From Salvelinus alpinus (taxonomy: Eukaryota > Chordata > Actinopteri > Salmoniformes > Salmonidae): a stretch of DNA of 64,000 nt. Position numbers and translations under genes: made by a program. The DNA lies in contig NC_092098.1 of assembly GCF_045679555.1 (NCBI RefSeq), positions 19,419,038-19,483,037 of the forward strand, in the 5' to 3' direction. The notes under the pieces were generated by a model. The model was not told the DNA's origin and did not search any database. It saw nothing but the letters and a program-made list of their open reading frames with translations. Below are positions 9,501 through 54,654 of this stretch, piece by piece (position 1 is the first letter of the stretch; every line of letters starts with the position of its first letter).

Positions 9501-12500
9501 AGTCAATACATGTTAGAATCACCTTTGGCAGCGATTACAGCTGTTAGTCTTTCTGGGCAAATCTCTAAGCGCTTTGCACACCTGGACTGTACAATATTAG
9601 CCCATTTTATCTTTTTTTTTTTATTCTTCAAGCTCTGAAGTTGGTTGTTGATCATTGCTTGACAGCCATTTTCTAGTCTTGCCATAGATTTTCAAGCAGA
9701 TTTAAGTAAACTGTAACTAGGCCACTCAGGAACATTCATTGTTGTCTTGGTGAGCAACTCCAGTGTATATTTGGCCTTGTGTTTTAGGTTATTGTCCTGC
9801 TGAAAGGTGAATATATCTTCAGACTGAACCAGGTTTTCCTCTAGGACTTTTCCTGTGCTTAGCTCTAATCCGTTTCTTTTTATCCTAAAAAACTCCCTAG
9901 TCCTTGCCGATGACAGTTATGGGTATGATCGTCATCGGCAAGGACTAGGGAATATTTTAGGATAAAAAGAAACGGAGGCCTGGAAGCCTGGTTCAATGCC
10001 TCGCAAAGAAGGGAACCTATTGGTAGGGTAAGGGTAAAGGAAGGGTAAAAATAAAAAAGCATACATTTGAATATCCCTTTGAGCATTGTGAAGTTATTAA
10101 TTACACTTTGGATGGTGCATCAATATACACAGTCACTACAAAGATACAGGCGTCCTTCCTAACTCAGTTCCCGGACAGAAAGGAAACCGCTCAGGGATTT
10201 CACCATGAGGCCAATGGTGACAGATTTTGAGAGTATGAGCAATACTCCATCACCTATTCTGCCTTCCTCTTGTGATGATTTAGTTTAACTTTAATAGCAA
10301 ATTAAGGGCAACCATTGATGCCATATCCAAACGTAGAGGCCCTTGGATGAGTGAGGAAACGAATGCAGAGATGACGTGGAGAAAGGCAAAAGTTGCAGGT
10401 CCATTATGATATTCTGAGACAGGAACTTGGCATATATAACAAGACCATTAGAAATGCCAGACGGGCTCATTTTTCTCACTTGATCACTAATAATCAGAAT
10501 AATACGAAAGTGCTTTTCTCGACCATTGGTCTGATAAATCCTACCCCTGCAAACCTATGTGAACGTTCCTCCACATCTGAATGTGATGAGTTTGCTGCAT
10601 ATTTCAGAGATAAGAACCATTAGGCTGGGTATCAGTCAAACAAGACCTGAATAGGAGTTTGACCTGTGCCCTACCCTACCACGCAAAGGCTCTATGGATT
10701 TATTTTCCCTGGTTGACACAGACATGCTCAGGAAAGAAATATCACAATTTAAACCTTTAACCTGCCTTCTCAATCTTATCCCCACCACCTTCAAAAGTGT
10801 TTAATTGCATATCTGAAGAAATGCAAGCTATTATTAATCACTCCCTGTTCAAAGGCACTTTCCCCACTGCACTAAAAACAGCTATGGTGAAACCTCTTCT
10901 GAAGAAAATCTAGATTCTCCATATGATCTTAGAGCCAACACAGATGCCAAACAGCTCTCTGTCCTTGTACTCTTGGATTTAAGTGCTGCATTCGACACTG
11001 TTGACCACGATGTCCTTCTGGACACACTGGAGAGGTGGGTTGGCCTCTAAATTGGTTTAGGACCTATTTAACCGGTCGAGAGTTTTCTTTGTCACCAACA
11101 TAACTCAGAAAATACATATCATGTGGCGTTCCACAAGGTTTGATTTTTGGTCCGGTACTGTTCAGTTTATATATGTTACTTCTTGACAGCTTATCAGACA
11201 GCACAGCATTGATTTTCACTGCTACGCTGATACACAGCTTTACAGTTCTGTGTCACCAGAGGATTTTAGCGCCACAGATAAATGATTAGACTGTATTATT
11301 AGTGATTTAAATACTTGGATGGCTCAACTTCCTACAGCTAAATCAAGACAAGGCCGAGGTATATATTGTTGGAGCCAAAGCACAGCGAGAGAATCTTTGT
11401 CTGCACATTTTCATTCACAGGCAATAAAGATAAAACCCCATGTAAAAAAAACCAACCTAGGTGTAAATTCTATCACATGTTAGGAAAGTGACCAAAATAG
11501 TTTTTTACCAACTGAGGAACGTTGCCAAGGTGTGTCTGTTTCTCTCTCAGGCTGATACAGAGAGACTCATCCATGCTTTTATTACAAGCAGGCTTGACTA
11601 CTGTAATACTCTCCTGTCTGGTCTACCCAAGAAAGCCATTGGTCAACTGCAAACGTACAGAATGCTGCTACACGGGTACTGAGCAAGACCAGACGGAGAG
11701 CACACTGCCTGGTTTTAAGGTCTCTGTACTGACTGCCTGTGAGTTTTAGAATTCATTTTAAGATTCTTCTATTGATTTTTAAATCAATCCGCGATTGGGC
11801 ACCCCAATATGTCAGACAGGCTTTTAAGTTATGTACCCAGTAAGTCCCACAGGTCCTCTGGCACTGGCCTTTTAACTATCCCAAAGACTATGACCAAGAG
11901 CCATGGAGAGGCAGCCTTTAGTTACTATGCCCCCAGCCTCTGGAATAGCCTGCCAGAGAACCCGAGGGGGGACAAAACTGTGGACCTAGTTAAATGAGAT
12001 CTTAAAACACACCTTTTCTGCTTTGTTTTTCCTTAGGGTGCTTTTAGTTGTTCAGTTTGTATTATTCTTGTTTTTTTTATCCTCATGTTTGTTGTATAGT
12101 AAATATTTCAGTTTATTTTCATTGTTTTGTATTTGTTTTTTTCCTTGTGTTGCACCTTGTGTTGCGTTCCATGTCTGAAATGTGCTGTGTAAATAAAGCT
12201 TGATTTGATTTGACTTTAAAACAGTTAGTTTAATAGCTGTGATGGGGGAACTTAGGATGGATCAACAATATTTTAGTTACTCCACAATACTAACCTAAAT
12301 GACTGACAAGAAGGAAGGCTGTACAGAATACAAATATACCAAATCCTGTTTGCAGTAAGACACTAAAGTAAAAACTGCAAAAAATGTGGTAAAGAAATTA
12401 TCTTTTTAGGATAAAAATAAACTGAATAGATCTCAGCACAGGCAAAATCCTAGAGGAAAACTTGGTTCAGTCTTCTTTCCACCAGCCACTGTGAGATGAA

Positions 12501-15500
12501 TTTACCTTTCAGCAGGACAATAACCTAAAACACAAGGCCACATGTTGCTTACCAAGATGACATTGAATGTTCCTGAGTGGCCTAGTTACAGTTTTGACTT
12601 AAATCATCTTGGAAAATCTGTCAAGACATGAAAATGGCTGTTTAGCAATGATCAACAAAAAACTTGACAGAGCTTGGAGAATTTTAAAAGAATAGTCTGC
12701 AAATATTGCACAATCTAGGTGAGCAAAGCTCTTAGAGACTTCCCCAGAAAGAGTCACGGCTGTAAACCCTGCCAAGGGTGATTCTAACATGTATTGACTC
12801 AGGGGTGTGAATACTAATGTAAAGTAGATATTTCTGTATTTGATGTTCATTAAATTTGCAAAAATGTATAAACATGTTTTCACTTTGTCATTATGGGGTG
12901 TTATGTGTAGATGGGTGAGAAAGAAATCTATATGAATCCGTTTTGAATTCCATGTAACACAGCAAAATATGGATTAAGTCTAGGGGTAGGAATACTTTCT
13001 GAAGGCACTGTAGAGATAATATGGACAGTATATTTATATAAAAGGTGTGCAGTAGTTTTTAGAGTGAGCCATGACTAGAATACAGTATATACATATAAAG
13101 TGGGTAAAATGGTATGTGAACATTTATTAAAGTGAACAGTGTTCAATGACTATAGGGCATAGCCGTCTCGAAGGTGCAGGGTAAAGTACCGGGTGGTAGC
13201 AGGCTAGTAACAGTGACCAAGGTTCAGGGTAGTGTACTGGGCGTAGGCCCGGCTAGTGGTCAATGTTTAACAGTCTGATCGCCTGGAGATGAAGCTGTTT
13301 ATCATTCTCTTGATCCCAACTTTGATGCACCTGTACTGTCTCCACCTTCTAGATGGTAGTGAGGTGAACAGGCCGTGGCTCTGGTGGCTGAGGTCTTTTG
13401 ATGATCTTCTTGGCCTTCATGTGACACTGGGTGTTGTAGATGTCCTGGAGGGAAGGCAGTGTGCTTTGATGATGCTTTGGGCTGATCGCACCACCCTCTG
13501 GAGAGCCCTGCGGTTGAGGACGGTGCAATTTGTATTTTTTATTTAACTAGGCATGTCAGTTAGGAACACCGGCCATACCCAGACGACGCTGGGCCAATGT
13601 TGCGGCGCCCTATGGGACTCCCAATCATGGTCAGTTGTGATACAGCCTGGAATCGAACCAGGATGTCTGTAGTGACGCCTCAAGCACTGAGATGCAGTGC
13701 CTTAGACCGCTGTGCCACTCGGGAGCCCCAATTGCTGTACCAGGCGGTGATACAGCACGACATGATGCTCTCACTGGTGCCTACCTTCACCACTTGGGGT
13801 CAGCTCTTCAGGAAGTCCAGAAGTTTCTATTCTTTAAAAAGGTTATTGGAAATGTTCTTGAACTATTTCTTATGTTTCTCCTTAAACAAGAAGTTAAGTT
13901 AGATGATTGAAAATCAAGTTCTTGGATTTGTTCTTTATTCCAGTATAGCTAAACCCTTCAACTCAGGGCAGTGAGACAATAAGGTCATGAAAGTAATTGA
14001 ACATTCACCCACAAACTTTGTCTGAAAGTTTCAGTATAGATTATTATAAACCCAAGAACATGTTTCAGAACAGTCATCTCAGTACAAATATGCTAAAATG
14101 ATTGCCATTGCTAGCTAAGAAGATGGTTAAGAAATGATTTGAGAAGTTCATAAGAAAATCATTAAATCTTAGTTTAAGTGCAATTCATCAACAATATCCT
14201 ATCTTTTTCTTAAGAAGCTTCTTAATTTTTTTTGCGTAAAAAGTGTTTTCTGTGAGTCTGGGCCCAGGACCCAGTTCCACAGGGATGGGTTCAGACCCAG
14301 GCCCCTGAGCTTAGTGATGAGCTTGGAGGGAAATATGGTGATTGAAGGTTGAGCTGTAGTCAATGAACAGCATTATTACATAGGTATTTATATTGTCCAG
14401 GTGGGATAGGGCAGTGTGCTGTGCAATGGCGATTGTGTCGTCCGTGGATCTGTTGAGGTGGTATGCGAATTGTAGGTTGTCGGGTAAGATGGAGGTGATA
14501 TCCTTAACTAGCCTCTTGAAGCACTTCGTGATGATAGAAGTGAGTGCTACGGGGCGATAGTCATTTAGTTCAGTTACCTTCGCCGTCTTTGGTACAGGAA
14601 CATCTTGAGATGCCGTCTGGGCCGGCAGTCTTGCGAGGGTTAAAATGCTTAAATGACTTACTCACGTCAGGCAAGGAGAACGAGAGCACACCGTCCTCGT
14701 TAGTGGAGGGGGCCCGCGTTGGGGGCTCCATGTTTTCCTCGAAGCAGGCAAAGGTGTTTAGCTTATCCGGGAGCGCGGCGTCGGTGTCCGAGGTGGCTGG
14801 CTTTCCCTTTATAATACATGATTGTCTGGAGTTCCTGCCACATTTCTCGTGTCGTTTTGCCTCTAGATGGAATGCTGCCGTCTGTCCAGGGTTGTTGGTT
14901 TGGATAAGTTGTAATCGTCACAGTGGCAACAACATCCTCTATGCACTTCCTGATGAACCCAGTGTATACGTCGATACTATTCTCAGAGGCGACCCGGGAA
15001 AATGTTCCAGTCCGCGTGATCAAAACAATCTTGAAGCATAGAGTCCAATTGGTCAGACCAATGTTAAACAGTCCTTACCACGGGTGCTTCCTGTTGGAAG
15101 TTTCTGCCTATAGGTGTGATATGATTTTCCGAAGAGAGGGCGGGGGAGGGCCTTGTAGCTGTAGCAATGATCACGAGTTTGTGAGTATAGCCCAGGAGAT
15201 GTTGACAGAATTTCGGTAGCGTTTTACTCAGATTTCCTTTGTTAAAGTCCCCAGCTGCAATACATGCGGCCTCAGGATATGCGGTTTCCAGACCTAAATG
15301 TCATTCCCTGAGGATGTGTAGCCTAAAGACCAGTGTATATAAAGTTACCCGTTTGGGCTCGAATGTCTAATCCAGTTTGCACATAGTCCAGTGTAGTTCC
15401 CTGAGAGCCGTCGTGGTGTCTGCTTGGGGGGGAATATACACGACAGTGATGATGACCAAAGAAAATGATCTCTGGAGGTCATGTGGTCGGCATTTGATGG

Positions 15501-18500
15501 TGAGATATTACAGATCGGGAGAACAAAAGGACTTGAGTCCCTGTACGTTACCACAATGCTATTGGTCTTTCGCACTCATTATTCATGATTCATTCATGAT
15601 TATCCGTAATCATGGTAGCATCCACATTAGTGCAGGTGTTCAGAAACATATTCTATTCTTATTTACAATAAAATTAACTCCAAAATGTCACAATACATTA
15701 TTTACAATTCATTTCTATTGAGCACAACATAATCTGAAGCACAACCAAAACAAACTGCAAATGCATCCATTAAATGCATCCAGCTAGGAATATGTGACCA
15801 AAATATGAAACTTTTGACTACTTTAATATACATTTAAGTGAATTTGTCCAAATACTTATGACAAATTCAAAATGCATTCATTTCTAAATGGTAAAAGCCA
15901 CTGTCTTATTGCTATCCAGCGTGAGCCACTGTCTTATTGCTATCCAGCGTGAGCCACTGTCTTATTGCTATCCAGCGTGAGCCACTGTCTTATTGCTATC
16001 CAGCGTGAGCCACTGTCTTATTGCTCTCCAGCGTGAGCCACTGTCTTATTGCTCTCCAGCGTGAGCCACTGTCTTATTGCTCTCCAGCGTGAGCCACTGT
16101 CTTATTGCTCTCCAGCGTGAGCCACTGTCTTATTGCTCTCCAGCGTGAGCCACTGTCTTATTGCTCTCCAGCGTGAGCCACTGTCTTATTGCTCTCTAGC
16201 GTGAGCCACTGTCTTATTGTTCTCCAGCGTGAGCCACTGTCTTATTGCTCTCCAGCGTGAGCCACTGTCTTATTGCTCTCCAGCGTGAGCCACTGTCTTA
16301 TTGCTCTCCAGCGTGAGCCACTGTCTTATTGTTCTCCAGCGTGAGCCACTGTCTTATTGTTCTCCAGCGTGAGCCACTGTCTTATTGCTCTCTAGCGTGA
16401 GCCACTGTCTTATTGCTCTCCAGCGTGAGCCACTGTCTTATTGCTCTCCAGCGTGAGCCACTGTCTTATTGCTCTCCAGCGTGAGCCACTGTCTTATTGC
16501 TATCCAGCGTGAGCCACTGTCTTATTGCTCTCCAGCGTGAGCCACTGTCTTATTGCTCTCCAGCGTGAGCCACTGTCTTATTGCTCTCCAGCGTGAGCCA
16601 CTGTCTTATTGCTCTCCACCGTGAGCCACTGTCTTATTGCTCTCCACCGTGAGCCACTGTCTTATTGCTCTCCACCGTGAGCCACTGTCTTATTGCTCTC
16701 CACCGTGAGCCACTGTCTTATTGCTCTCCAGCGTGAGCCACTGTCTTATTGCTATCTAGCGTGAGCCACTGTCTTATTGCTCTCCAGCGTGAGCCACTGT
16801 CTTATTGCTCTCTAGCGTGAGCCACTGTCTTATTGCTCTCCAGCGTGAGCCACTGTCTTATTGCTCTCTAGCGTGAGCCACTGTCTTATTGCTATCCAGC
16901 GTGAGCCACTGTCTTATTGCTCTCTAGCGTGAGCCACTGTCTTATTGTTCTCCAGCGTGAGCCACTGTCTTATTGCTCTCTAGCGTGAGCCACTGTCTTA
17001 TTGCTCTCCAGCGTGAGCCACTGTCTTATTGCTCTCTAGCGTGAGCCACTGTCTTATTGCTCTCTAGCTTGAGCCACTGTCTTATTGCTCTCTAGCGTGA
17101 GCCACTGTCTTATTGTTCTCCAGCGTGAGCCACTGTCTTATTGCTCTCTAGCGTGAGCCACTGTCTTATTGCTCTCCAGCGTGAGCCACTGTCTTATTGC
17201 TCTCCAGCGTGAGCCACTGTCTTATTGCTCTCCAGCGTGAGCCACTGTCTTATTGCTCTCTAGCGTGAGCCACTGTCTTATTGCTCTCCAGCGTGAGCCA
17301 CTGTCTTATTGCTCTCCAGCGTGAGCCACTGTCTTATTGCTCTCCAGCGTGAGCCACTGTCTTATTGCTCTCCAGCGTGAGCCACTGTCTTATTGCTCTC
17401 TAGCGTGAGCCACTGTCTTATTGCTCTCTAGCGTGAGCCACTGTCTTATTGCTCTCCAGCGTGAGCCACTGTCTTATTGCTCTCTAGCGTGAGCCACTGT
17501 CTTATTGCTATCCAGCGTGAGCCACTGTCTTATTGCTATCCAGCGTGAGCCACTGTCTTATTGCTCTCCAGCGTGAGCCACTGTCTTATTGCTCTCCAGC
17601 GTGAGCCACTGTCTTATTGCTCTCCAGCGTGAGCCACTGTCTTATTGCTCTCCAGCGTGAGCCACTGTCTTATTGCTCTCCAGCGTGAGCCACTGTCTTA
17701 TTGCTCTCCAGCGTGAGCCACTGTCTTATTGCTCTCCACCGTGAGCCACTGTCTTATTGCTCTCCAGCGTGAGCCACTGTCTTATTGCTCTCCAGCGTGA
17801 GCCACTGTCTTATTGTTCTCCAGCGTGAGCCACTGTCTTATTGTTCTCCAGCGTGAGCCACTGTCTTATTGCTCTCCAGCGTGAGCCACTGTCTTATTGC
17901 TCTCCACCGTGAGCCACTGTCTTATTGCTCTCCAGCGTGAGCCACTGTCTTATTGCTCTCCACCGTGAGCCACTGTCTTATTGCTCTCCACCGTGAGCCA
18001 CTGTCTTATTGCTCTCCAGCGTGAGCCACTGTCTTATTGCTCTCCAGCGTGAGCCACTGTCTTATTGTTCTCCAGCGTGAGCCACTGTCTTATTGCTCTC
18101 CAGCGTGAGCCACTGTCTTATTGTTCTCCAGCGTGAGCCACTGTCTTATTGCTCTCTAGCGTGAGCCACTGTCTTATTGCTCTCTAGCGTGAGCCACTGT
18201 CTTATTGCTCTCCAGCGTGAGCCACTGTCTTATTGCTATCCAGCGTGAGCCACTGTCTTATTGCTCTCCAGCGTGAGCCACTGTCTTATTGCTCTCCAGC
18301 GTGAGCCACTGTCTTATTGCTATACAGCGTGAGCCACTGTCTTATTGCTATCTAGCGTGAGCCACTGTCTTATTGCTCTCTAGCGTGAGCCACTGTCTTA
18401 TTGCTCTCCAGCGTGAGCCACTGTCTTATTGCTATCTAGCGTGAGCCACTGTCTTATTGCTCTCTAGCGTGAGCCACTGTCTTATTGCTCTCCAGCGTGA

Positions 18501-21500
18501 GCCACTGTCTTATTGCTCTCTAGCGTGAGCCACTGTCTTATTGCTCTCTAGCGTGAGCCACTGTCTTATTGCTCTCCAGCGTGAGCCACTGTCTTATTGC
18601 TCTCTAGCGTGAGCCACTGTCTTATTGCTCTCCAGCGTGAGCCACTGTCTTATTGCTCTCCAGCGTGAGCCACTGTCTTATTGCTCTCTAGCGTGAGCCA
18701 CTGTCTTATTGCTATCCAGCGTGAGCCACTGTCTTATTGCTCTCCAGCGTGAGCCACTGTCTTATTGCTATCCAGCGTGAGCCACTGTCTTATTGCTCTC
18801 TAGCGTGAGCCACTGTCTTATTGCTATCCAGCGTGAGCCACTGTCTTATTGCTCTCTAGCGTGAGCCACTGTCTTATTGCTATCCAGCGTGAGCCACTGT
18901 CTTATTGCTCTCTAGCGTGAGCCACTGTCTTATTGCTATCCAGCGTGAGCCACTGTCTTATTGCTCTCCAGCGTGAGCCACTGTCTTATTGCTCTCTAGC
19001 GTGAGCCACTGTCTTATTGCTATCCAGCGTGAGCCACTGTCTTATTGTTCTCTAGCGTGAGCCACTGTCTTATTGCTATCCAGCGTGAGCCACTGTCTTA
19101 TTGCTCTCTAGCGTGAGCCACTGTCTTATTGCTATCCAGCGTGAGCCACTGTCTTATTGCTCTCTAGCGTGAGCCACTGTCTTATTGCTATCCAGCGTGA
19201 GCCACTGTCTTATTGCTCTCCAGCGTGAGCCACTGTCTTATTGCTCTCCAGCGTGAGCCACTGTCTTATTGCTCTCCACCGTGAGCCACTGTCTTATTGC
19301 TATCCAGCGTGAGCCACTGTCTTATTGCTCTCTAGCGTGAGCCACTGTCTTATTGCTATCCAGCGTGAGCCACTGTCTTATTGCTCTCCAGCGTGAGCCA
19401 CTGTCTTATTGCTATCCAGCGTGAGCCACTGTCTTATTTCTATCCAGCGTGAGCCACTGTCTTATTGCTATCCAGCGTGAGCCACTGTCTTATTGCTATC
19501 CAGCGTGAGCCACTGTCTTATTGCTATCCAGCGTGAGCCACTGTCTTATTGCTATCCAGCGTGAGCCACTGTCTTATTGCTATCCAGCGTGAGCCACTGT
19601 CTTATTGCTCTCTAGCGTGAGCCACTGTCTTATTGCTATCCAGCGTGAGCCACTGTCTTATTGCTCTCCAGCGTGAGCCACTGTCTTATTGCTCTCCAGC
19701 GTGAGCCACTGTCTTATTGCTATCCAGCGTGAGCCACTGTCTTATTGCTATCCAGCGTGAGCCACTGTCTTATTGCTATCCAGCATGAGCCACTGTCTTA
19801 TTGCTCTCTAGCGTGAGCCACTGTCTTATTGCTATCCAGCGTGAGCCACTGTCTTATTGCTATCCAGCGTGAGCCACTGTCTTATTGCTATCCAGCGTGA
19901 GCCACTGTCTTATTGCTATCCAGCGTGAGCCACTGTCTTATTGCTCTCCAGCGTGAGCCACTGTCTTATTGCTATCCAGCGTGAGCCACTGTCTTATTGC
20001 TATCCAGCGTGAGCCACTGTCTTATTGCTCTCCAGCGTGAGCCACTGTCTTATTGCTATCCAGCGTGAGCCACTGTCTTATTGCTCTCTAGCGTGAGCCA
20101 CTGTCTTATTGCTATCCAGCGTGAGCCACTGTCTTATTGCTATCCAGCGTGAGCCACTGTCTTATTGCTCTCTAGCGTGAGCCACTGTCTTATTGCTCTC
20201 CAGCGTGAGCCACTGTCTTATTGCTATCCAGCGTGAGCCACTGTCTTATTGCTCTCCAGCGTGAGCCACTGTCTTATTGCTATCCAGCGTGAGCCACTGT
20301 CTTATTGCTATCCAGCGTGAGCCACTGTCTTATTGCTATCCAGCGTGAGCCACTGTCTTATTGCTCTCCAGCGTGAGCCACTGTCTTATTGCTCTCTAGC
20401 TTGAGCCACTGTCTTATTGCTCTCCACCGTGAGCCACTGTCTTATTGCTCTCCAGCGTGAGCCACTGTCTTATTGCTCTCTAGCGTGAGCCACTGTCTTA
20501 TTGCTCTCTAGCGTGAGCCACTGTCTTATTGCTCTCTAGCGTGAGCCACTGTCTTATTGCTATCCAGCGTGAGCCACTGTCTTATTGCTCTCTAGCTTGA
20601 GCCACTGTCTTATTGTTCTCCAGCGTGAGCCACTGTCTTATTGCTCTCCAGCGTGAGCCACTGTCTTATTGCTCTCTAGCGTGAGCCACTGTCTTATTGT
20701 TCTCTAGCTTGAGCCACTGTCTTATTGTTCTCTAGCTTGAGCCACTGTCTTATTGCTCTCTAGCTTGAGCCACTGTCTTATTGTTCTCTAGCTTGAGCCA
20801 CTGTCTTATTGTTCTCTAGCTTGAGCCACTGTCTTATTGTTCTCTAGCTTGAGCCACTGTCTTATTGTTCTCTAGCGTGAGCCACTGTCTTATTGCTCTC
20901 TAGCTTGAGCCACTGTCTTATTGCTATCCAGCGTGAGCCACTGTCTTATTGCTCTCTAGCGTGAGCCACTGTCTTATTGTTCTCTAGCGTGAGCCACTGT
21001 CTTATTGTTCTCTAGCTTGAGCCACTGTCTTATTGTTCTCTAGCGTGAGCCACTGTCTTATTGCTCTCCAGCGTGAGCCACTGTCTTATTGCTATCCAGC
21101 GTGAGCCACTGTCTTATTGCTATCCAGCGTGAGCCACTGTCTTATTGCTATCCAGCATGAGCCACTGTCTTATTGCTCTCTAGCGTGAGCCACTGTCTTA
21201 TTGCTATCCAGCGTGAGCCACTGTCTTATTGCTATCCAGCGTGAGCCACTGTCTTATTGCTATCCAGCGTGAGCCACTGTCTTATTGCTATCCAGCGTGA
21301 GCCACTGTCTTATTGCTCTCCAGCGTGAGCCACTGTCTTATTGCTATCCAGCGTGAGCCACTGTCTTATTGCTATCCAGCGTGAGCCACTGTCTTATTGC
21401 TCTCCAGCGTGAGCCACTGTCTTATTGCTCTCCAGCGTGAGCCACTGTCTTATTGCTATCCAGCGTGAGCCACTGTCTTATTGCTCTCTAGCGTGAGCCA

Positions 21501-24500
21501 CTGTCTTATTGCTCTCTAGCGTGAGCCACTGTCTTATTGCTATCCAGCGTGAGCCACTGTCTTATTGCTCTCTAGCGTGAGCCACTGTCTTATTGCTCTC
21601 TAGCGTGAGCCACTGTCTTATTGCTATCCAGCGTGAGCCACTGTCTTATTGCTATCCAGCGTGAGCCACTGTCTTATTGCTATCCAGCGTGAGCCACTGT
21701 CTTATTGCTATCCAGCGTGAGCCACTGTCTTATTGCTCTCCAGCGTGAGCCACTGTCTTATTGCTATCCAGCGTGAGCCACTGTCTTATTGCTATCCAGC
21801 GTGAGCCACTGTCTTATTGCTCTCCAGCGTGAGCCACTGTCTTATTGCTCTCCAGCGTGAGCCACTGTCTTATTGCTATCCAGCGTGAGCCACTGTCTTA
21901 TTGCTCTCTAGCGTGAGCCACTGTCTTATTGCTCTCTAGCGTGAGCCACTGTCTTATTGCTATCCAGCGTGAGCCACTGTCTTATTGCTATCCAGCGTGA
22001 GCCACTGTCTTATTGCTCTCCAGCGTGAGCCACTGTCTTATTGCTCTCCAGCGTGAGCCACTGTCTTATTGCTCTCCAGCGTGAGCCACTGTCTTATTGC
22101 TCTCCAGCGTGAGCCACTGTCGTATTGCTCTCCAGCGTGAGCCACTGTCTTATTGCTATCCAGCGTGAGCCACTGTCTTATTGCTCTCTAGCGTGAGCCA
22201 CTGTCTTATTGTTCTCCAGCGTGAGCCACTGTCTTATTGTTCTCCAGCGTGAGCCACTGTCTTATTGCTCTCTAGCGTGAGCCACTGTCTTATTGCTCTC
22301 CAGCGTGAGCCACTGTCTTATTGCTCTCCAGAGTGAGCCACTGTCTTATTGCTCTCCAGCGTGAGCCACTGTCTTATTGCTCTCCAGCGTGAGCCACTGT
22401 CTTATTGCTCTCCAGCGTGAGCCACTGTCTTATTGCTCTCCACCGTGAGCCACTGTCTTATTGCTCTCCACCGTGAGCCACTGTCTTATTGCTCTCCACC
22501 GTGAGCCACTGTCTTATTGCTCTCCACCGTGAGCCACTGTCTTATTGCTCTCCAGCGTGAGCCACTGTCTTATTGCTATCTAGCGTGAGCCACTGTCTTA
22601 TTGCTCTCCAGCGTGAGCCACTGTCTTATTGCTCTCTAGCGTGAGCCACTGTCTTATTGCTCTCCAGCGTGAGCCACTGTCTTATTGCTCTCTAGCGTGA
22701 GCCACTGTCTTATTGTTCTCCAGCGTGAGCCACTGTCTTATTGCTCTCTAGCGTGAGCCACTGTCTTATTGCTCTCCAGCGTGAGCCACTGTCTTATTGC
22801 TCTCCAGCGTGAGCCACTGTCTTATTGCTCTCCAGCGTGAGCCACTGTCTTATTGCTCTCTAGCGTGAGCCACTGTCTTATTGCTCTCCAGCGTGAGCCA
22901 CTGTCTTATTGCTCTCCAGCGTGAGCCACTGTCTTATTGCTCTCTAGCGTGAGCCACTGTCTTATTGCTCTCCAGCGTGAGCCACTGTCTTATTGCTCTC
23001 TAGCGTGAGCCACTGTCTTATTGCTATCCAGCGTGATCCACTGTCTTATTGCTATCCAGCGTGAGCCACTGTCTTATTGCTCTCTAGCGTGAGCCACTGT
23101 CTTATTGCTATCCAGCGTGAGCCACTGTCTTATTGCTATCCAGCGTGAGCCACTGTCTTATTGCTCTCCAGCGTGAGCCACTGTCTTATTGCTCTCCAGC
23201 GTGAGCCACTGTCTTATTGCTCTCCACCGTGAGCCACTGTCTTATTGCTCTCCTGCGTGAGCCACTGTCTTATTGCTCTCCAGCGTGAGCCACTGTCTTA
23301 TTGTTCTCCAGCGTGAGCCACTGTCTTATTGTTCTCCAGCGTGAGCCACTGTCTTATTGCTCTCCAGCGTGAGCCACTGTCTTATTGCTCTCCACCGTGA
23401 GCCACTGTCTTATTGCTCTCCAGCGTGAGCCACTGTCTTATTGCTCTCCACCGTGAGCCACTGTCTTATTGCTCTCCACCGTGAGCCACTGTCTTATTGC
23501 TCTCCAGCGTGAGCCACTGTCTTATTGCTCTCCAGCGTGAGCCACTGTCTTATTGTTCTCCAGCGTGAGCCACTGTCTTATTGCTCTCCAGCGTGAGCCA
23601 CTGTCTTATTGTTCTCCAGCGTGAGCCACTGTCTTATTGCTCTCTAGCGTGAGCCACTGTCTTATTGCTCTCCAGCGTGAGCCACTGTCTTATTGCTATC
23701 CAGCGTGAGCCACTGTCTTATTGCTATCCAGCGTGAGCCACTGTCTTATTGTTCTCTAGCGTGAGCCACTGTCTTATTGCTCTCCAGCGTGAGCCACTGT
23801 CTTATTGCTCTCCAGCGTGAGCCACTGTCTTATTGCTATCCAGCGTGAGCCACTGTCTTATTGCTCTCCAGCGTGAGCCACTGTCTTATTGCTCTCCAGC
23901 GTGAGCCACTGTCTTATTGCTCTCCAGCGTGAGCCACTGTCTTATTGCTCTCCAGCGTGAGCCACTGTCTTATTGCTCTCCAGCGTGAGCCACTGTCTTA
24001 TTGCTCTCCAGCGTGAGCCACTGTCTTATTGCTCTCTAGCGTGAGCCACTGTCTTATTGCTCTCCACCGTGAGCCACTGTCTTATTGCTCTCCAGCGTGA
24101 GCCACTGTCTTATTGCTCTCTAGCGTGAGCCACTGTCTTATTGCTCTCCAGCGTGAGCCACTGTCTTATTGCTCTCCAGCGTGAGCCACTGTCTTATTGC
24201 TATCCAGCGTGAGCCACTGTCTTATTGCTCTCCAGCGTGAGCCACTGTCTTATTGCTATCCAGCGTGAGCCACTGTCTTATTGCTCTCCAGCGTGAGCCA
24301 CTGTCTTATTGCTATCCAGCGTGAGCCACTGTCTTATTGCTATCCAGCGTGAGCCACTGTCTTATTGCTCTCCAGCGTGAGCCACTGTCTTATTGCTATC
24401 CAGCGTGAGCCACTGTCTTATTGCTCTCCAGCGTGAGCCACTGTCTTATTGCTCTCCAGCGTGAGCCACTGTCTTATTGCTATCCAGCGTGAGCCACTGT

Positions 24501-27500
24501 CTTATTGCTCTCCAGCGTGAGCCACTGTCTTATTGCTATCCAGCGTGAGCCACTGTCTTATTGCTCTCCAGCGTGAGCCACTGTCTTATTGCTCTCCAGC
24601 GTGAGCCACTGTCTTATTGCTCTCTAGCGTGAGCCACTGTCTTATTGCTCTCCAGCGTGAGCCACTGTCTTATTGCTCTCCAGCGTGAGCCACTGTCTTA
24701 TTGCTCTCCAGCGTGAGCCACTGTCTTATTGCTCTCCAGCGTGAGCCACTGTCTTATTGCTATCCAGCGTGAGCCACTGTCTTATTGCTCTCCAGCGTGA
24801 GCCACTGTCTTATTGCTATCCAGCGTGAGCCACTGTCTTATTGCTCTCCAGCGTGAGCCACTGTCTTATTGCTATCCAGCGTGAGCCACTGTCTTATTTC
24901 TATCCAGCGTGAGCCACTGTCTTATTGCTATCCAGCGTGAGCCACTGTCTTATTGCTATCCAGCGTGAGCCACTGTCTTATTGCTATCCAGCGTGAGCCA
25001 CTGTCTTATTGCTCTCTAGCGTGAGCCACTGTCTTATTGCTATCCAGCGTGAGCCACTGTCTTATTGCTCTCCAGCGTGAGCCACTGTCTTATTGCTCTC
25101 CAGCGTGAGCCACTGTCTTATTGCTATCCAGCGTGAGCCACTGTCTTATTGCTATCCAGCGTGAGCCACTGTCTTATTGCTATCCAGCATGAGCCACTGT
25201 CTTATTGCTCTCTAGCGTGAGCCACTGTCTTATTGCTATCCAGCGTGAGCCACTGTCTTATTGCTATCCAGCGTGAGCCACTGTCTTATTGCTATCCAGC
25301 GTGAGCCACTGTCTTATTGCTATCCAGCGTGAGCCACTGTCTTATTGCTCTCCAGCGTGAGCCACTGTCTTATTGCTATCCAGCGTGAGCCACTGTCTTA
25401 TTGCTATCCAGCGTGAGCCACTGTCTTATTGCTCTCCAGCGTGAGCCACTGTCTTATTGCTATCCAGCGTGAGCCACTGTCTTATTGCTCTCTAGCGTGA
25501 GCCACTGTCTTATTGCTATCCAGCGTGAGCCACTGTCTTATTGCTATCCAGCGTGAGCCACTGTCTTATTGCTCTCTAGCGTGAGCCACTGTCTTATTGC
25601 TCTCCAGCGTGAGCCACTGTCTTATTGCTATCCAGCGTGAGCCACTGTCTTATTGCTCTCCAGCGTGAGCCACTGTCTTATTGCTATCCAGCGTGAGCCA
25701 CTGTCTTATTGCTCTCTAGCTTGAGCCACTGTCTTATTGCTCTCCACCGTGAGCCACTGTCTTATTGCTCTCCAGCGTGAGCCACTGTCTTATTGCTCTC
25801 TAGCGTGAGCCACTGTCTTATTGCTCTCTAGCGTGAGCCACTGTCTTATTGCTCTCTAGCTTGAGCCACTGTCTTATTGCTATCCAGCGTGAGCCACTGT
25901 CTTATTGCTCTCTAGCGTGAGCCACTGTCTTATTGTTCTCTAGCTTGAGCCACTGTCTTATTGTTCTCTAGCTTGAGCCACTGTCTTATTGCTCTCTAGC
26001 GTGAGCCACTGTCTTATTGTTCTCTAGCTTGAGCCACTGTCTTATTGTTCTCTAGCGTGAGCCACTGTCTTATTGCTCTCCAGCGTGAGCCACTGTCTTA
26101 TTGCTATCCAGCGTGAGCCACTGTCTTATTGCTATCCAGCGTGAGCCACTGTCTTATTGCTATCCAGCATGAGCCACTGTCTTATTGCTCTCTAGCGTGA
26201 GCCACTGTCTTATTGCTATCCAGCGTGAGCCACTGTCTTATTGCTATCCAGCGTGAGCCACTGTCTTATTGCTATCCAGCGTGAGCCACTGTCTTATTGC
26301 TATCCAGCGTGAGCCACTGTCTTATTGCTATCCAGCGTGAGCCACTGTCTTATTGCTATCCAGCGTGAGCCACTGTCTTATTGCTCTCCAGCGTGAGCCA
26401 CTGTCTTATTGCTCTCCAGCGTGAGCCACTGTCTTATTGCTATCCAGCGTGAGCCACTGTCTTATTGCTCTCCAGCGTGAGCCACTGTCTTATTGCTATC
26501 CAGCGTGAGCCACTGTCTTATTTCTATCCAGCGTGAGCCACTGTCTTATTGCTATCCAGCGTGAGCCACTGTCTTATTGCTATCCAGCGTGAGCCACTGT
26601 CTTATTGCTATCCAGCGTGAGCCACTGTCTTATTGCTCTCTAGCGTGAGCCACTGTCTTATTGCTATCCAGCGTGAGCCACTGTCTTATTGCTCTCCAGC
26701 GTGAGCCACTGTCTTATTGCTCTCCAGCGTGAGCCACTGTCTTATTGCTATCCAGCGTGAGCCACTGTCTTATTGCTATCCAGCGTGAGCCACTGTCTTA
26801 TTGCTATCCAGCATGAGCCACTGTCTTATTGCTCTCTAGCGTGAGCCACTGTCTTATTGCTATCCAGCGTGAGCCACTGTCTTATTGCTATCCAGCGTGA
26901 GCCACTGTCTTATTGCTATCCAGCGTGAGCCACTGTCTTATTGCTATCCAGCGTGAGCCACTGTCTTATTGCTCTCCAGCGTGAGCCACTGTCTTATTGC
27001 TATCCAGCGTGAGCCACTGTCTTATTGCTATCCAGCGTGAGCCACTGTCTTATTGCTCTCCAGCGTGAGCCACTGTCTTATTGCTATCCAGCGTGAGCCA
27101 CTGTCTTATTGCTCTCTAGCGTGAGCCACTGTCTTATTGCTATCCAGCGTGAGCCACTGTCTTATTGCTATCCAGCGTGAGCCACTGTCTTATTGCTCTC
27201 TAGCGTGAGCCACTGTCTTATTGCTCTCCAGCGTGAGCCACTGTCTTATTGCTATCCAGCGTGAGCCACTGTCTTATTGCTCTCCAGCGTGAGCCACTGT
27301 CTTATTGCTATCCAGCGTGAGCCACTGTCTTATTGCTCTCTAGCTTGAGCCACTGTCTTATTGCTATCCAGCGTGAGCCACTGTCTTATTGCTCTCCAGC
27401 GTGAGCCACTGTCTTATTGCTATCCAGCGTGAGCCACTGTCTTATTTCTATCCAGCGTGAGCCACTGTCTTATTGCTATCCAGCGTGAGCCACTGTCTTA

Positions 27501-30500
27501 TTGCTATCCAGCGTGAGCCACTGTCTTATTGCTATCCAGCGTGAGCCACTGTCTTATTGCTCTCTAGCGTGAGCCACTGTCTTATTGCTATCCAGCGTGA
27601 GCCACTGTCTTATTGCTCTCCAGCGTGAGCCACTGTCTTATTGCTCTCCAGCGTGAGCCACTGTCTTATTGCTATCCAGCGTGAGCCACTGTCTTATTGC
27701 TATCCAGCGTGAGCCACTGTCTTATTGCTATCCAGCATGAGCCACTGTCTTATTGCTCTCTAGCGTGAGCCACTGTCTTATTGCTATCCAGCGTGAGCCA
27801 CTGTCTTATTGCTATCCAGCGTGAGCCACTGTCTTATTGCTATCCAGCGTGAGCCACTGTCTTATTGCTATCCAGCGTGAGCCACTGTCTTATTGCTCTC
27901 CAGCGTGAGCCACTGTCTTATTGCTATCCAGCGTGAGCCACTGTCTTATTGCTATCCAGCGTGAGCCACTGTCTTATTGCTCTCCAGCGTGAGCCACTGT
28001 CTTATTGCTATCCAGCGTGAGCCACTGTCTTATTGCTCTCTAGCGTGAGCCACTGTCTTATTGCTATCCAGCGTGAGCCACTGTCTTATTGCTATCCAGC
28101 GTGAGCCACTGTCTTATTGCTCTCTAGCGTGAGCCACTGTCTTATTGCTCTCCAGCGTGAGCCACTGTCTTATTGCTATCCAGCGTGAGCCACTGTCTTA
28201 TTGCTCTCCAGCGTGAGCCACTGTCTTATTGCTATCCAGCGTGAGCCACTGTCTTATTGCTCTCTAGCTTGAGCCACTGTCTTATTGCTCTCCACCGTGA
28301 GCCACTGTCTTATTGCTCTCCAGCGTGAGCCACTGTCTTATTGCTCTCTAGCGTGAGCCACTGTCTTATTGCTCTCTAGCGTGAGCCACTGTCTTATTGC
28401 TCTCTAGCTTGAGCCACTGTCTTATTGCTATCCAGCGTGAGCCACTGTCTTATTGCTCTCTAGCGTGAGCCACTGTCTTATTGTTCTCTAGCTTGAGCCA
28501 CTGTCTTATTGTTCTCTAGCTTGAGCCACTGTCTTATTGCTCTCTAGCGTGAGCCACTGTCTTATTGTTCTCTAGCTTGAGCCACTGTCTTATTGTTCTC
28601 TAGCGTGAGCCACTGTCTTATTGCTCTCCAGCGTGAGCCACTGTCTTATTGCTATCCAGCGTGAGCCACTGTCTTATTGCTATCCAGCGTGAGCCACTGT
28701 CTTATTGCTATCCAGCATGAGCCACTGTCTTATTGCTCTCTAGCGTGAGCCACTGTCTTATTGCTATCCAGCGTGAGCCACTGTCTTATTGCTATCCAGC
28801 GTGAGCCACTGTCTTATTGCTATCCAGCGTGAGCCACTGTCTTATTGCTATCCAGCGTGAGCCACTGTCTTATTGCTATCCAGCGTGAGCCACTGTCTTA
28901 TTGCTATCCAGCGTGAGCCACTGTCTTATTGCTCTCCAGCGTGAGCCACTGTCTTATTGCTCTCCAGCGTGAGCCACTGTCTTATTGCTATCCAGCGTGA
29001 GCCACTGTCTTATTGCTCTCCAGCGTGAGCCACTGTCTTATTGCTCTCCAGCGTGAGCCACTGTCTTATTGCTATCCAGCGTGAGCCACTGTCTTATTGC
29101 TCTCTAGCGTGAGCCACTGTCTTATTGCTCTCTAGCGTGAGCCACTGTCTTATTGCTCTCTAGCGTGAGCCACTGTCTTATTGCTATCCAGCGTGAGCCA
29201 CTGTCTTATTGCTCTCCAGCGTGAGCCACTGTCTTATTGCTCTCCAGCGTGAGCCACTGTCTTATTGCTCTCTAGCGTGAGCCACTGTCTTATTGCTCTC
29301 CAGCGTGAGCCACTGTCTTATTGCTCTCTAGCGTGAGCCACTGTCTTATTGCTCTCCAGCGTGAGCCACTGTCTTATTGTTCTCCAGCGTGAGCCACTGT
29401 CTTATTGCTCTCTAGCGTGAGCCACTGTCTTATTGCTCTCCAGCGTGAGCCACTGTCTTATTGCTCTCCAGCGTGAGCCACTGTCTTATTGCTATCCAGC
29501 GTGAGCCACTGTCTTATTGCTATCCAGCGTGAGCCACTGTCTTATTGCTCTCTAGCGTGAGCCACTGTCTTATTGCTCTCCAGCGTGAGCCACTGTCTTA
29601 TTGCTATCCAGCGTGAGCCACTGTCTTATTGCTATCCAGCGTGAGCCACTGTCTTATTGCTCTCCAGCGTGAGCCACTGTCTTATTGCTATCCAGCGTGA
29701 GCCACTGTCTTATTGCTATCCAGCGTGAGCCACTGTCTTATTGCTATCCAGCGTGAGCCACTGTCTTATTGCTATCCAGCGTGAGCCACTGTCTTATTGC
29801 TCTCCAGCGTGAGCCACTGTCTTATTGCTATCCAGCGTGAGCCACTGTCTTATTGCTATCCAGCGTGAGCCACTGTCTTATTGCTATCCAGCGTGAGCCA
29901 CTGTCTTATTGCTATCCAGCGTGAGCCACTGTCTTATTGCTCTCTAGCGTGAGCCACTGTCTTATTGCTCTCCAGCGTGAGCCACTGTCTTATTGCTCTC
30001 TAGCGTGAGCCACTGTCTTATTGCTCTCCAGCGTGAGCCACTGTCTTATTGCTCTCCAGCGTGAGCCACTGTCTTATTGCTATCCAGCGTGAGCCACTGT
30101 CTTATTGCTCTCCAGCGTGAGCCACTGTCTTATTGCTATCCAGCGTGAGCCACTGTCTTATTGCTATCCAGCGTGAGCCACTGTCTTATTGCTATCCAGC
30201 GTGAGCCACTGTCTTATTGCTCTCCAGCGTGAGCCACTGTCTTATTGCTCTCTAGCGTGAGCCACTGTCTTATTGCTCTCTAGCTTGAGCCACTGTCTTA
30301 TTGCTCTCCAGCGTGAGCCACTGTCTTATTGCTCTCTAGCGTGAGCCACTGTCTTATTGCTCTCCAGCGTGAGCCACTGTCTTATTGCTCTCTAGCTTGA
30401 GCCACTGTCTTATTGCTATCCAGCGTGAGCCACTGTCTTATTGCTCTCTAGCGTGAGCCACTGTCTTATTGTTCTCTAGCTTGAGCCACTGTCTTATTGC

Positions 30501-31736
30501 TCTCTAGCGTGAGCTGCGCGTCGGTCTTGAAAATGGAACCAGAGTTTAGTTATATGTTCGGGCAGCGCAAGTATTTTAGGATTTTATGGAGCTGACCTGC
30601 TCACCTCCAGGTTTTGTTGAAATGAATAAAAGCATCTCATGCGCTGCAAAAGTTGCAGGTCCAATGTTAGCAAGCCAGTAAAACTGTTTGTGACCGTGTT
30701 ACGGTGTTTTTGTTGTTGCATGTAAACTATTTTCACATTTTGTGACTATAATCTTCGGGCATGCCAAAAATACTCCGGACTTGCCTGTTGGACATTTCAG
30801 ACCTAAATGTCATTCCCTGAGGATGTGTAGCCAAAAGACTTGTATATATAAAGTTACCCGTTTGTGCACGCATGTCTAAACCATTGTTAAATCCTTGTGT
30901 AGAAGGCTGATGGTGTGTGCAACACAAACTTTAAAAGGACCAAGAGCAGAGAAGAGGTGATGCAGGCACTGCAGGACTTTGTGGGTTGCAACACCCTAAT
31001 TCTGGTGAGTGTTTCTCTTTCTCTTAAAGCTGAAATTTGCTTAAGGTGAAACAGAGCCACTGTTCGCCCCGGCCGTCTATTTGTTTTTTTGTTAATTAAA
31101 CAGAAGAGCAGAGCATCCAGCATTGTGGTCAAAAATATTTGCAGTAACTTCTCTGTTGTTCTATTGCGCAAATAATGATGTGCAGTGATATCAACGGGGG
31201 GAAAAGTGTTTGTTGTTTGGAGTAACTTCTTTTTTTGTAATATCGCAAATGGACGTGGCAGTTTTACCAAGTATATATTCCAGCTTTAATCTTACCCCCT
31301 TTACCTTTATCTTCCTCTCTCAGGATTATAGTTCTCTTTCTCTTCTCTTTCAGAAGGGATATCTGAGACGAATGAAGGATCTTCGACTGGTGTTGGAGGC
31401 ATCCATCTTCTTCAGAACACATGAGGTAAGCCGTTTTCCACTGCGTTCATGGTATAATGCATGCTTTGCATGTCTTGATGCTGGTCTCTGAATGGCGAGG
31501 TGCACACTAACATCTGTTTCTCTCTGCAGGTGGTGGGCAGCTCCCTACTATTTGTGCATGACAGTACAGGGAAAACAGGAGTATGGATGATTGATTTTGG
31601 GAGGACTGTCCCCCTGCCGCCGCCTCTCACCCTGGACCACCGCACCCCCTGGATAGAGGGCAACCGAGAGGATGGGTACCTTTGGGGGCTGGATAACCTC
31701 ATTGATGTCCTGACCGATATGCTGCATCTCACCTGA
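597..31736 (+). CDS. itpkc: Inositol-trisphosphate 3-kinase (ITPKC-like), complete, 7 exons, 419 aa
   Basis: Phosphorylates inositol 1,4,5-trisphosphate to the 1,3,4,5-tetrakisphosphate in the cytosol. Exons: 597-956, 3442-3541, 3968-4181, 7054-7258, 30903-31004, 31354-31425, 31530-31736 (stop TGA). Phases join without a break. The N-terminal exon (120 aa) is Ser/Asp-rich and family-variable. The kinase domain shows [15 protein letters not shown], the IP3-binding stretch [30 protein letters not shown] and the catalytic WMIDFG. All introns are GT-AG except intron 4, whose donor reads AAG|GCACGA. Intron 4 is 23.6 kb and full of repeats. The calmodulin-binding segment (exon 2) matches human ITPKA/C in length but not in residues. 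The kinase assignment is secure. The choice of C over A or B rests on synteny with human 19q13 genes. The short N-terminus is closer to ITPKA in size than to the 683-aa human ITPKC. Confidence 0.88.
1423..1875 (+). repeat. tRNA-derived salmonid SINE, long type, about full length
   Basis: Lies in intron 1. The head reads GCCTCCCGAGTGGAGCAGCG with A-box and B-box-like GGGTTCGACCC, followed by the tRNA-unrelated body found in long salmonid SINEs (GGCCGGCCGGGATGTCCTTG, ACATTGGTGCGGCTGGCTTC). It ends in an A-rich tail near AAAAAAGAAGAA. A second copy lies at 6207-6640. The subfamily (Slm-type or other) is not assigned. Confidence 0.85.
1876..3441. other. Rest of intron 1, no recognised content
   Basis: AT-rich intron sequence with an A/T microsatellite-like patch around 2697-2735. 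I see no exon, RNA gene or named repeat. The short open frames here have no homology I recognise. The 3' end is a normal acceptor (CTCTCCCCATGCAG) for exon 2. Confidence 0.4.
3594..3819 (-). repeat. HpaI-type tRNA SINE, minus strand
   Basis: On the minus strand it starts GCTCCCGAGTGGCGCAGCAA, carries a B-box-like GGTTCGATCCCGG and ends with the typical tail CTTAACTGACTTGCCTAGTT. It lies in intron 2, about 150 bases before exon 3. Other copies of the same short type are at 13532-13727 and 38911-39106. Confidence 0.88.
3920..3941 (+). repeat. Poly-C run near the exon 3 acceptor
   Basis: About 21 consecutive C residues lie 26 bases upstream of the exon 3 splice acceptor (GTGCCTGGTGGTCCAG at 3967). 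The run sits where the polypyrimidine tract and branch point would be expected, so its length may affect splicing. Its exact length is also prone to sequencing error. Confidence 0.8.
4226..5432 (+). mobile_element. Tc1-like DNA transposon, 5' truncated, decayed
   Basis: Transposase sequence runs on the plus strand. It includes the 5' UTR-like CATCCTTGAGATGTTTCTAC, fragments matching the Tc1 N-terminus (about 4430-4760) and decayed DDE parts (FDETKIEL-like at about 4818, NPIEHLW-like at about 5020). The 3' end reads TCTGAATACTTTCCGAATGCA followed by CTGTA. The 5' terminal inverted repeat is missing. Several stops and frameshifts make it inactive. Intron 3 of the kinase gene. Confidence 0.85.
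5433..6206. other. Intron 3 segment with a hAT-type repeat end
   Basis: GGTCCCTGACCCCAAGTTTGG then GAACCACTG at about 5781-5811 is the terminal signature of hAT-type nonautonomous elements (inverted, CAGTGGTTCCCAAACTT). I could not define the other end. The remainder is AT-rich intron with GCTAGC-rich patches around 6000-6080 and no gene. Confidence 0.4.
6207..6640 (+). repeat. tRNA-derived salmonid SINE, long type, second copy
   Basis: Same architecture as the copy at 1423-1875. The head reads CCTCCCGAGTAGCGCAGTGG, with B-box-like GGGTTCGATCTC, a body with CACATTGGTGCGGCTGGCTT and a terminal A-run near 6620. A short internal deletion in the head relative to the other copy is likely. Intron 3. 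Confidence 0.85.
6641..7053. other. End of intron 3 with a small inverted repeat
   Basis: Twelve-base arms TTGTCAGCAGCG (about 6659) and CGCTGCTGACAA (about 6767) flank roughly 100 bases and could fold back. They may be the remains of a MITE. Otherwise there is no recognisable content before exon 4. Confidence 0.35.
7259..7318 (+). repeat. CA-rich microsatellite abutting the exon 4 donor
   Basis: An (AC/AG)-rich simple repeat begins within a few bases of the exon 4 end and occupies the donor region itself. The inferred donor is AAG|GCACGA, a GC donor with a weak match. The only good GT donor nearby (GCAA|GTGAGC at about 7325) would break the reading phase with exon 5. Confidence 0.7.
7368..7618. 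repeat. Foldback (palindromic) element, about 250 bp
   Basis: Two near-identical arms of about 65-70 bases lie in opposite orientation around a spacer of roughly 55 bases. The left arm includes GTCAAACACAAGGACACATT and GCACTGCCAACTGGCTGTGT. The right arm includes the complements ACACAGCCAGTTGGCAGTGC and AATGTGTCCTTGTGTTTGAC. Weaker symmetry extends outward to AATCCCCATT / AATGGGGATT. It resembles a MITE or foldback with hAT-like GTGTCAAAC ends. Confidence 0.75.
7619..8718. other. Intron 4 segment with a hAT-like end
   Basis: A terminal-like motif GAGTTTGACGCCCCTGG at about 8384-8400, preceded by AACTGGCAAAGTCTGGCCAG, is typical of hAT-related nonautonomous elements. It may pair with GTCAAAC motifs in the foldback just upstream. 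No coding potential is recognised. Confidence 0.4.
8719..9302 (+). mobile_element. LINE 3' end (RT-encoding salmonid family), plus strand
   Basis: The segment begins with the C-terminal coding tail of the LINE (ATCAAAGTTGGGATCAAGAG, TTTTATCACCAGGCCGTCAG) and runs into the family's 3' UTR (CTATTTACATAGTCATTGAA, CACTTTTAATAATGTTTACA). It stops exactly at the Tc1 end at 9303. A mirror copy lies at 13013-13523, so the pair form arms of a larger inverted repeat. Truncated and inactive. Confidence 0.75.
8816..9115. repeat. 48-bp minisatellite inside the LINE 3' region
   Basis: About six tandem copies of a 48-bp unit containing CACTGTCCTGAACCTTATTC and GGCTACCTCCCGGTA. The unit length is a multiple of three, which produces a spurious 16-residue repeating open frame on the minus strand. 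The mirror copy of the same LINE region at about 13190-13255 has only one unit, so the array expanded after the two copies separated. Confidence 0.9.
9880..9966. repeat. Perfect-type hairpin at the inversion junction
   Basis: Arms of about 36 bases (TCCCTAGTCCTTGCCGATGA and its complement TCATCGGCAAGGACTAGGGA) flank a loop of roughly 15 bases (AGTTATGGGTATGAT). The arm is a known internal Tc1 segment, so the hairpin marks the point where the element was copied in inverted orientation. Confidence 0.85.
10217..12213 (+). mobile_element. L2-type LINE, decayed, inserted in the Tc1
   Basis: Plus-strand fragments of an L2-like non-LTR retrotransposon. They include an N-terminal part with [20 protein letters not shown] (about 10460-10520), RT pieces ([16 protein letters not shown]-like at 10975-11025, GVPQG-like at about 11125) and a C-terminal part with [16 protein letters not shown] and [16 protein letters not shown] (11825-11960). 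The 3' end is the L2-like tail AATAAAGCTTGATTTGATTTGA. Many stops and frameshifts are present. The host Tc1 sequence resumes at ACTTTAAAACAGTTAG. Confidence 0.85.
13013..13820 (-). mobile_element. LINE C-terminal and 3' region, minus strand, split by a SINE
   Basis: On the minus strand it encodes the RT C-terminal signature seen in fish LINEs: [14 protein letters not shown], then [20 protein letters not shown] and the end of the frame, followed by the 3' UTR mirroring 8719-9302. A SINE (13532-13727) interrupts the RT frame. The rest of the RT continues at 14235-15580. Truncated and frameshifted. Confidence 0.78.
13532..13727 (-). repeat. HpaI-type SINE inserted within the LINE
   Basis: Minus-strand head GGGGCTCCCGAGTGGCACAG, tail ending GCCTAGTTAAATAAAAAATA. 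The flanks GCAATTTG and CAATTGC look like a short target duplication. The LINE sequence is continuous across it, so the order of events is LINE first, SINE second. Confidence 0.85.
13821..14234. other. AT-rich insert between LINE segments
   Basis: LINE RT sequence breaks off after CAGGAAGTCCAG and resumes at GTGAGTCTGGGCCCAGGACC. The roughly 410 bases between are AT-rich, with no recognised family and no reading frame of note. They are probably a further insertion. Confidence 0.4.
14235..15580 (-). mobile_element. LINE RT and endonuclease region, minus strand, decayed
   Basis: The minus strand carries the RT palm region with [20 protein letters not shown]-like sequence (about 14540-14605) and [13 protein letters not shown]. 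Further 5' lie the linker and endonuclease-domain parts of the same salmonid LINE (about 14800-15560). Several frames are needed to follow it, so it is not functional. An 80-bp foreign segment at about 15289-15370 interrupts it. With 13013-13820 it forms one antisense LINE copy in intron 4. Confidence 0.78.
15581..15895. repeat. AT-rich dispersed repeat before the 28-bp array
   Basis: Sequence such as CAAACTGCAAATGCATCCA, GCTAGGAATATGTGACC and CTTTTGACTACTTTAATA resembles a dispersed element seen repeatedly in salmonid introns. I cannot name its class. The 28-bp array starts directly after GTAAAA at 15895. Confidence 0.4.
15896..30514. repeat. Giant 28-bp minisatellite array, about 522 units
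   Basis: One uninterrupted array of a 28-bp unit containing GTGAGCCACTGTCTTATTGC followed by a variable octamer, mostly TCTCCAGC, TATCCAGC or TCTCTAGC. Rarer variants are GTTCTC, CACCG, AGCTTG, AGCATG and TTATTTC. The phase at 16381, 18481, 20161, 22261, 24361, 26461, 28561 and 30241 is identical, so there is no net insertion or deletion over 14 kb. Variant order shows higher-order repeats: the run starting at 24891 recurs at 26515 and 27439, and rows 21241-21540 recur 420 bases later. Both strands have stops in the unit, so it is non-coding. It lies in intron 4 of the kinase gene. No intervening unique spacers exist, so it is not CRISPR-like. Confidence 0.97.
30515..30902. other. End of intron 4
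   Basis: Unique-looking sequence between the 28-bp array and exon 5. It contains at about 30798-30882 a segment (ATGTCATTCCCTGAGGATGT, TATATAAAGTTACCCGTTTG) that is repeated at about 15289-15370 inside the antisense LINE. The acceptor for exon 5 is CCTTGTGTAG. Confidence 0.5.
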
Positions 31737-34995: not shown

Positions 34996-35361
34996 AATAA
35001 TGCTAGTTAACTTTGGTAAGAGATGAGGGCGTTGCTGCCGCTGAAGACGGACAGGATGTCGCCCCACGCTTTAGCAAAACACCTGGCCAAGCCCAGCCTA
35101 ATTTCACTCAGCATGTTGTCACAGCAATCCCAGATCTCCACGTTCCTCACAGGGCCAGACCTTGATCAACAGCTTTCCCCCTCAGCTCCACTCCTTCACC
35201 CAGCCGCACACTGAAGACGTCAGCAAGCATGTCGGGCGCAGCAGCTCGGAGCTCATTGGCTGGGCGTCAAACTTATTTAGCAGGCTGCCTATGTCCCGGC
35301 TCCATGTCTACACGTAGCCTGTGGCATTACCTGTGTAGCAGTAGCGTTGCAGCCAGTCTGT

Positions 35362-48564: not shown

Positions 48565-54654
<6,090 letters not shown>

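Follow-up and report, generated by a model that had tools for sequence, protein, structure and literature searches.

The host gene and its intron

The 64-kb window (the whole stretch of Salvelinus alpinus DNA analysed here) contains, at 15896-30514 on the plus strand, a minisatellite array of 522 units of 28 bp (consensus AGCCACTGTCTTATTGCTCTCCAGCGTG) that closes with a terminal AGC. The array lies in an intron of a gene that the earlier note had taken for an IP3 3-kinase. This identification is upheld by the exons on either side, which encode the catalytic domain (IPK domain, 143 bits) and find their best PDB sequence match in ITPKC (E 3.6e-111), with ITPKB close behind (3.1e-110); we lean towards ITPKC as the identity of the host gene and do not regard this as proof. 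The upstream exon (7054-7258, plus strand, ending RIEGLK) is followed by a GC donor, and the downstream exon (30903-31004, plus strand, starting KADG) is preceded by a weak acceptor. As bounded by exon-end homology, the intron extends over 7259-30902 (23,644 bp) and the array makes up 61.8% of it, in line with the proposal that it fills more than half of the intron.

The closest paralogue in the same genome is found on contig C1, with protein identities of 95, 95, 88, 80 and 93% across five exons. Over 266 codons the two genes show a dN/dS of 0.19 and a dS of 0.24, with stops in neither; a few codons at the end of the last exon are out of register in this comparison, and dN is slightly raised by them. 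We infer that the C1 gene is the whole-genome-duplication ohnolog of the host gene. A duplicate at this dS and an assembly of 2.37 Gb would fit a salmonid genome. The donor of the intron is GC instead of GT in the window gene (AAG/GCACGA, 7256-7264), in the ohnolog (AAG/GCATGG) and in a further paralogue, L030 (AAA/GCAAGT), while paralogues L023 and L024 have a GT donor (AAG/GTCAGG). Elsewhere on the plus strand of the window, an exon with a SPAR C-terminal domain (44292-44561) and one with a peptidase M28 domain (56906-57328) probably belong to neighbouring genes, and an open frame at 52264-52929 carries a DDE_3 transposase domain.

Structure and growth of the array

TRF analysis of the array (period 28, 522.1 copies, 96% matches, 0% indels) and its cutting at 28-base steps, which yields 522 whole head-to-tail units and a 3-nt AGC remnant, both confirm the 14.6-kb array of about 522 copies described previously, and a genome pattern search returns the same number of units. 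The array thereby falls within the usual definition of a minisatellite, with units of about 10-100 bp arranged head-to-tail in one array. The few variable positions per unit that had been remarked upon are also evident: the units fall into 16 types, with 431 of the 522 belonging to the three most frequent (173, 166 and 92 units), and they are on average 97.1% identical to the consensus. Variation is common at unit positions 17, 19, 22, 24 and 26, with rare variants (1-4 units each) at positions 2, 11, 16, 21, 23 and 25. Of the 12 distinct substitutions, ten lie in unit positions 16-26 (scan P 0.017); this weak deviation from a uniform spread is not what a simple neutral history would predict.

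The sense strand of the gene is the pyrimidine-rich strand of the array. A coding repeat was considered and rejected, since 28 is not divisible by 3 and the array contains no frame of 80 aa running from stop to stop. RNA folding of six units, predicted for both strands, gave no gain over shuffled sequence (z 0.25 and 0.24), and a scan of the window with Rfam at gathering thresholds returned no match in the array. The Rfam tRNA matches obtained elsewhere in the window, on the minus strand at 45788-45861 (57.4 bits) and 46338-46409 (36.7 bits), are either genes or SINE heads.

Comparison of the array as a string of units reveals a nested block structure on the plus strand at approximately 18700-28999, and the array appears to have grown by duplication both of units and of blocks, including a 4.9-kb block whose copies have since diverged by ∼0.6%. 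In this older duplication, units 15-190 (16316-21243) match units 225-369 (22196-26255; coordinates approximate) over an alignment of 141 units, with 122 identical, 25 nucleotide differences (0.63%) and several gains or losses of units (score 144.5, compared to at most 21 in 20 shuffles). Further along, units 318-466 (24800-28971, approximate) can be written as X Y X X Y, and within units 318-467 blocks of 33 and of 25 units recur without any difference, as does a string of 60 units at 2,548 bp. Such a repeat is far from expectation (500 shuffles gave none above 11 units and 300 Markov strings none above 14). Repeated strings of at least 12 units take in 266 of the 522, and no run of identical units exceeds 6.

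The perfect blocks may be recent, or they may reflect assembly error, and the exact 33-, 25- and 60-unit repeats are what could be expected if a real array had been inflated in its assembled length through repeated blocks. We regard such inflation as unlikely. The window holds no N bases, and the copies of the older superblock are not an assembly duplicate, since they are 0.63% apart and have gained and lost units relative to one another.

A founder segment in a dispersed element

The array is hosted by an ancient dispersed element. Its right arm (30506-30860, approximate ends, plus strand) starts GCGTGAGC/TGCGC, and its left arm is found at 8389-8520 (approximate ends, plus strand), where alignment to the ohnolog is best at 8400-8512 and the extent beyond the aligned part was judged by eye. 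Other dispersed repeats, to which no strand was assigned, occupy the sequence between the left arm and the array (8521-15895), the final one, from 15590 to about 15871, being very common. Within these repeats, a fragment of the right arm (about 30797-30859) recurs to the left of the array at 15286-15350, as matched by eye within the window. The same region has a 48-bp minisatellite of 6.5 copies (8806-9116, TRF) that belongs to a large inverted repeat; the opposite arm of the latter (about 13170-13270) has ∼2 copies of the 48-bp unit by eye, so this may be another array grown within a dispersed repeat.

A search of the ohnolog intron had first suggested that the unit was without a source, with a score of 11 for the unit, lower than the five best shuffles of 30 (12 to 14), and scores of 13 and 9 for the left and right flanks of the array. 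This was overturned by a search with the right flank, which gave three matches, all diverged copies of the element on contigs C8, C18 and C2. In the C8 copy (L043), homology continues past the edge of the array into a tandem pair of 26-bp segments resembling the unit (TRF, 2.0 copies, 96%), after which GTGAGCTGCGC comes just as it does in the window. Querying with 551 bases of L043 yielded 46 matches from 40 scored of 132 first-look candidates, and a 171-base query yielded 30 matches from 27 candidates. In all, 27 copies of the element were read besides those of the window and the ohnolog, picked for covering or adjoining the founder region and not as a random sample. At a score threshold of 13 (maximum 12 in 400 shuffles), the founder segment is present once in 16 copies, twice in one (L043), more than twice in none and is absent from 10; some of these ten are fragments or are eroded at this place, and several align partly with the segment in a multiple alignment.

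The founder reads approximately AGCCACTATGTCCTATTGCTCTCAGGCGTG, then AGCTGC, and is ∼30 bp long; compared with it, the window unit lacks 2 bp and carries a few substitutions. A founder pattern allowing 3 mismatches identifies only four sites (C8 twice, C30 and C32), because older copies are too diverged. These comparisons indicate that the unit is derived from a segment of which many copies of the ancient element have a single example. Among the copies, L072 and L073 look like copies of each other, and five matches to the element lie within about 0.11 Mb of contig C1 (22444395 to 22555387), perhaps through a local segmental duplication.

Birth of the array

We consider it probable that the array is a single-locus giant minisatellite that arose within the old dispersed element carried by this itpkc intron. 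In the window's copy of the element, the array occupies the founder's place and ends in the AGC that comes after the founder. Of the 16 copies with a single founder, 6 have AGC to either side of it, 7 have lost the right-hand one and 3 differ on one side; the bounding pair is exact over only 3 bp, and a longer imperfect pair, GCGCTAGC and GCGTGAGC (6 of 8 alike), occurs together only in L043. Slippage or unequal exchange between the short AGC repeats bounding the founder would have produced the first duplicate, and duplication at the level of units and of blocks would then have led to 522 copies. No function need be supposed for the array to exist, as introns would tolerate it.

An incomplete terminal unit is stated in PMC3389668 to be a mark of slipped mispairing between noncontiguous short repeats, and both this and the Haber-Louis model are cited there; the terminal AGC of the array appears to fit slipped mispairing or the related Haber-Louis model. 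The array may resemble the transposon-derived minisatellites described in that study in having started from short direct repeats within a dispersed element, and its terminal unit is likewise incomplete, although the direct repeats counted there were of 5-20 bp, longer than the exact 3-bp pair seen here. The joints of the two-copy state of L043 differ, so that the founder segment seems to have been duplicated there separately, for a second time.

The relative age of the element is suggested by the ohnolog, whose matching intron is ∼2,075 bp long and contains the element with neither founder nor array. Sensitive alignment pairs window 8400-8512 with ohnolog-intron 1200-1308 (78%) and window 30607-30859 with 1327-1603 (65%), so that ∼22 kb of array and other repeats in the window correspond to 18 bp between the aligned arms in the ohnolog. 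Because the ohnolog retains both arms without the segment between them, it is most likely that the element predates the gene duplication and that the founder was lost in one gene copy and amplified in the other. There are also observations that count against this model of birth: the founder is not shown by 10 of the 27 copies, the exact bounding repeat is short, the founder pattern with 3 mismatches reaches only four sites, no intermediate of 3 to 500 units was found among the copies examined, the part of the left arm beside the founder is missing at the left edge of the array, and the clustering of substitutions in unit positions 16-26 sits poorly with simple neutrality.

Possible effects on splicing and RNA

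Most units comprise a pyrimidine stretch ending in AG, then GTGAGC. Scored with hand-written splice-site weight matrices (cut-offs of at least 7 bits for acceptors and at least 5 bits for donors), the array has 21.5 acceptor-like sites per kb compared to 2.9 in the ohnolog intron and 2.0 in the rest of the host intron, whereas donor-like sites number 0.07 per kb compared to 3.9 and 4.3 in the comparison introns. By the same matrices, the true acceptor of the host intron scores 3.1 bits at best. Several copies of the element already read CTCTCAGG at the founder's place, so the units apparently owe their acceptor-like appearance to the founder and not to selection at this locus.

The passive effects to be expected would be 14.6 kb of extra transcription and ∼500 pyrimidine-tract/AG modules in the pre-mRNA, and an effect of the array on splicing is possible. 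It could, for instance, act as a splicing brake in cis, with hundreds of acceptor-like modules set against a weak acceptor and a GC donor and with a product that alters with array length. The excess of acceptor-like sites over both comparison sequences, the low score of the true acceptor and the GC donor of the host would all suit such a brake, as would the association of an intronic VNTR with exon skipping in human ABCA7 (PMC5954066). We nevertheless hold it to be rather improbable: donor-like sites are nearly absent from the array, making full cryptic exons less likely, the splice-like motifs were already present in the founder, and the weakness of the acceptor was scored for the host intron by itself, apart from the other exons and the ohnolog acceptor. 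The ABCA7 VNTR, as described in that report, resembles the array as a tandem repeat within an intron that could plausibly influence splicing; there, length correlates with exon skipping, whereas for the array such an effect would be hypothetical. Similarly doubtful is the broader proposal that ∼500 acceptor-like modules together with PTB-type motifs might form a length-tunable brake on one itpkc copy, in which repeat number would set output and from which the duplicate with the short intron would be free.

The PTB-type motifs (YUCUYY/YYUCUY) number 332 in the array, or 22.7 per kb, compared to 4.3 and 4.4 in the comparison introns. This density would suit the idea, by analogy with PNCTR, a pyrimidine-rich repeat RNA that binds PTBP1 (PMC6224606), that the transcribed array might titrate pyrimidine-binding proteins such as PTBP1. 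As PNCTR is presented in that paper, the two are alike in having dense YUCUYY/YYUCUY motifs on the transcribed strand. However, PNCTR has 2,178 motifs (565 non-overlapping), so the array has about one-seventh as many, and it is intronic; introns are normally removed and degraded. We judge titration to be very improbable.

A single locus of unusual length

A degenerate 31-nt pattern of the unit, allowing at most 3 mismatches, was searched against the 2.37-Gb assembly and matched 522 sites, with none on the other strand and none for a reversed-pattern control, which excludes a chance origin of the matches. Since the window itself accounts for 522, none of the sites matched by the pattern lies elsewhere in the assembly; likewise, the exact consensus unit was counted 166 times both in the genome and in the window. 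The earlier note had asked whether the unit is specific to its locus, and in this one assembly it is (522 of 522 matches in the window). Its remark that the unit was not recognised as a named satellite is correct insofar as this is not a multi-locus satellite, but the unit is not without relatives, the founder segment being found in copies of the dispersed element. Although the element that carries the founder occurs dispersed through the genome (132 first-look candidates, of which 40 were scored), that the unit itself is a common satellite of many loci is hardly credible and is refuted for the present assembly by the equality of genome and window counts and by the presence of more than two units in 0 of the 27 element copies read. 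A scan of IMG/VR for the unit gave 0 matches.

The single-locus giant minisatellite that we favour is unusually long, yet of a known kind, namely transposon-derived. Minisatellite lengths quoted in PMC2820488 range from 0.5 kb to several kb, and the array is far longer than these. Other arrays in the window are at most 672 bp (TRF), and a 50-kb ohnolog stretch gave seven TRF rows, all <100 bp. Three further minisatellites were recorded by TRF in the window, at 35348-35870, 39424-40068 and 49419-50090, with units of 40, 34 and 53 bp in 13, 19 and 13 copies, respectively. Among those titles and abstract openings of the literature on fish intronic minisatellites that were listed, none names the array, which is no proof of absence.

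Among known systems, TRACT, a 30-bp VNTR of 3-30+ kb in an intron of human CACNA1C (PMC13131567), is comparable, and as described there it shares with the array a unit of ∼30 bp, an intronic location, a length of kilobases to tens of kilobases and few substitution variants. The longest perfect run is 6 units in the array compared to 26 in the shortest long-class TRACT alleles and, by analogy with the model put forward in that paper, the present array would be fairly stable. Polymorphism and effects on expression are known for TRACT; unlike TRACT, the array has a founder traced to a dispersed element and nested blocks that are visible.

The chief value of this locus lies in a readable founder and in an array-free ohnolog as a natural control. 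As the founder can be read at sister copies of the element, how a segment of ∼30 bp grows 500-fold becomes testable, and the array-free duplicate in the same genome provides a natural control for whether 14.6 kb of acceptor-like repeat changes the output of a gene.
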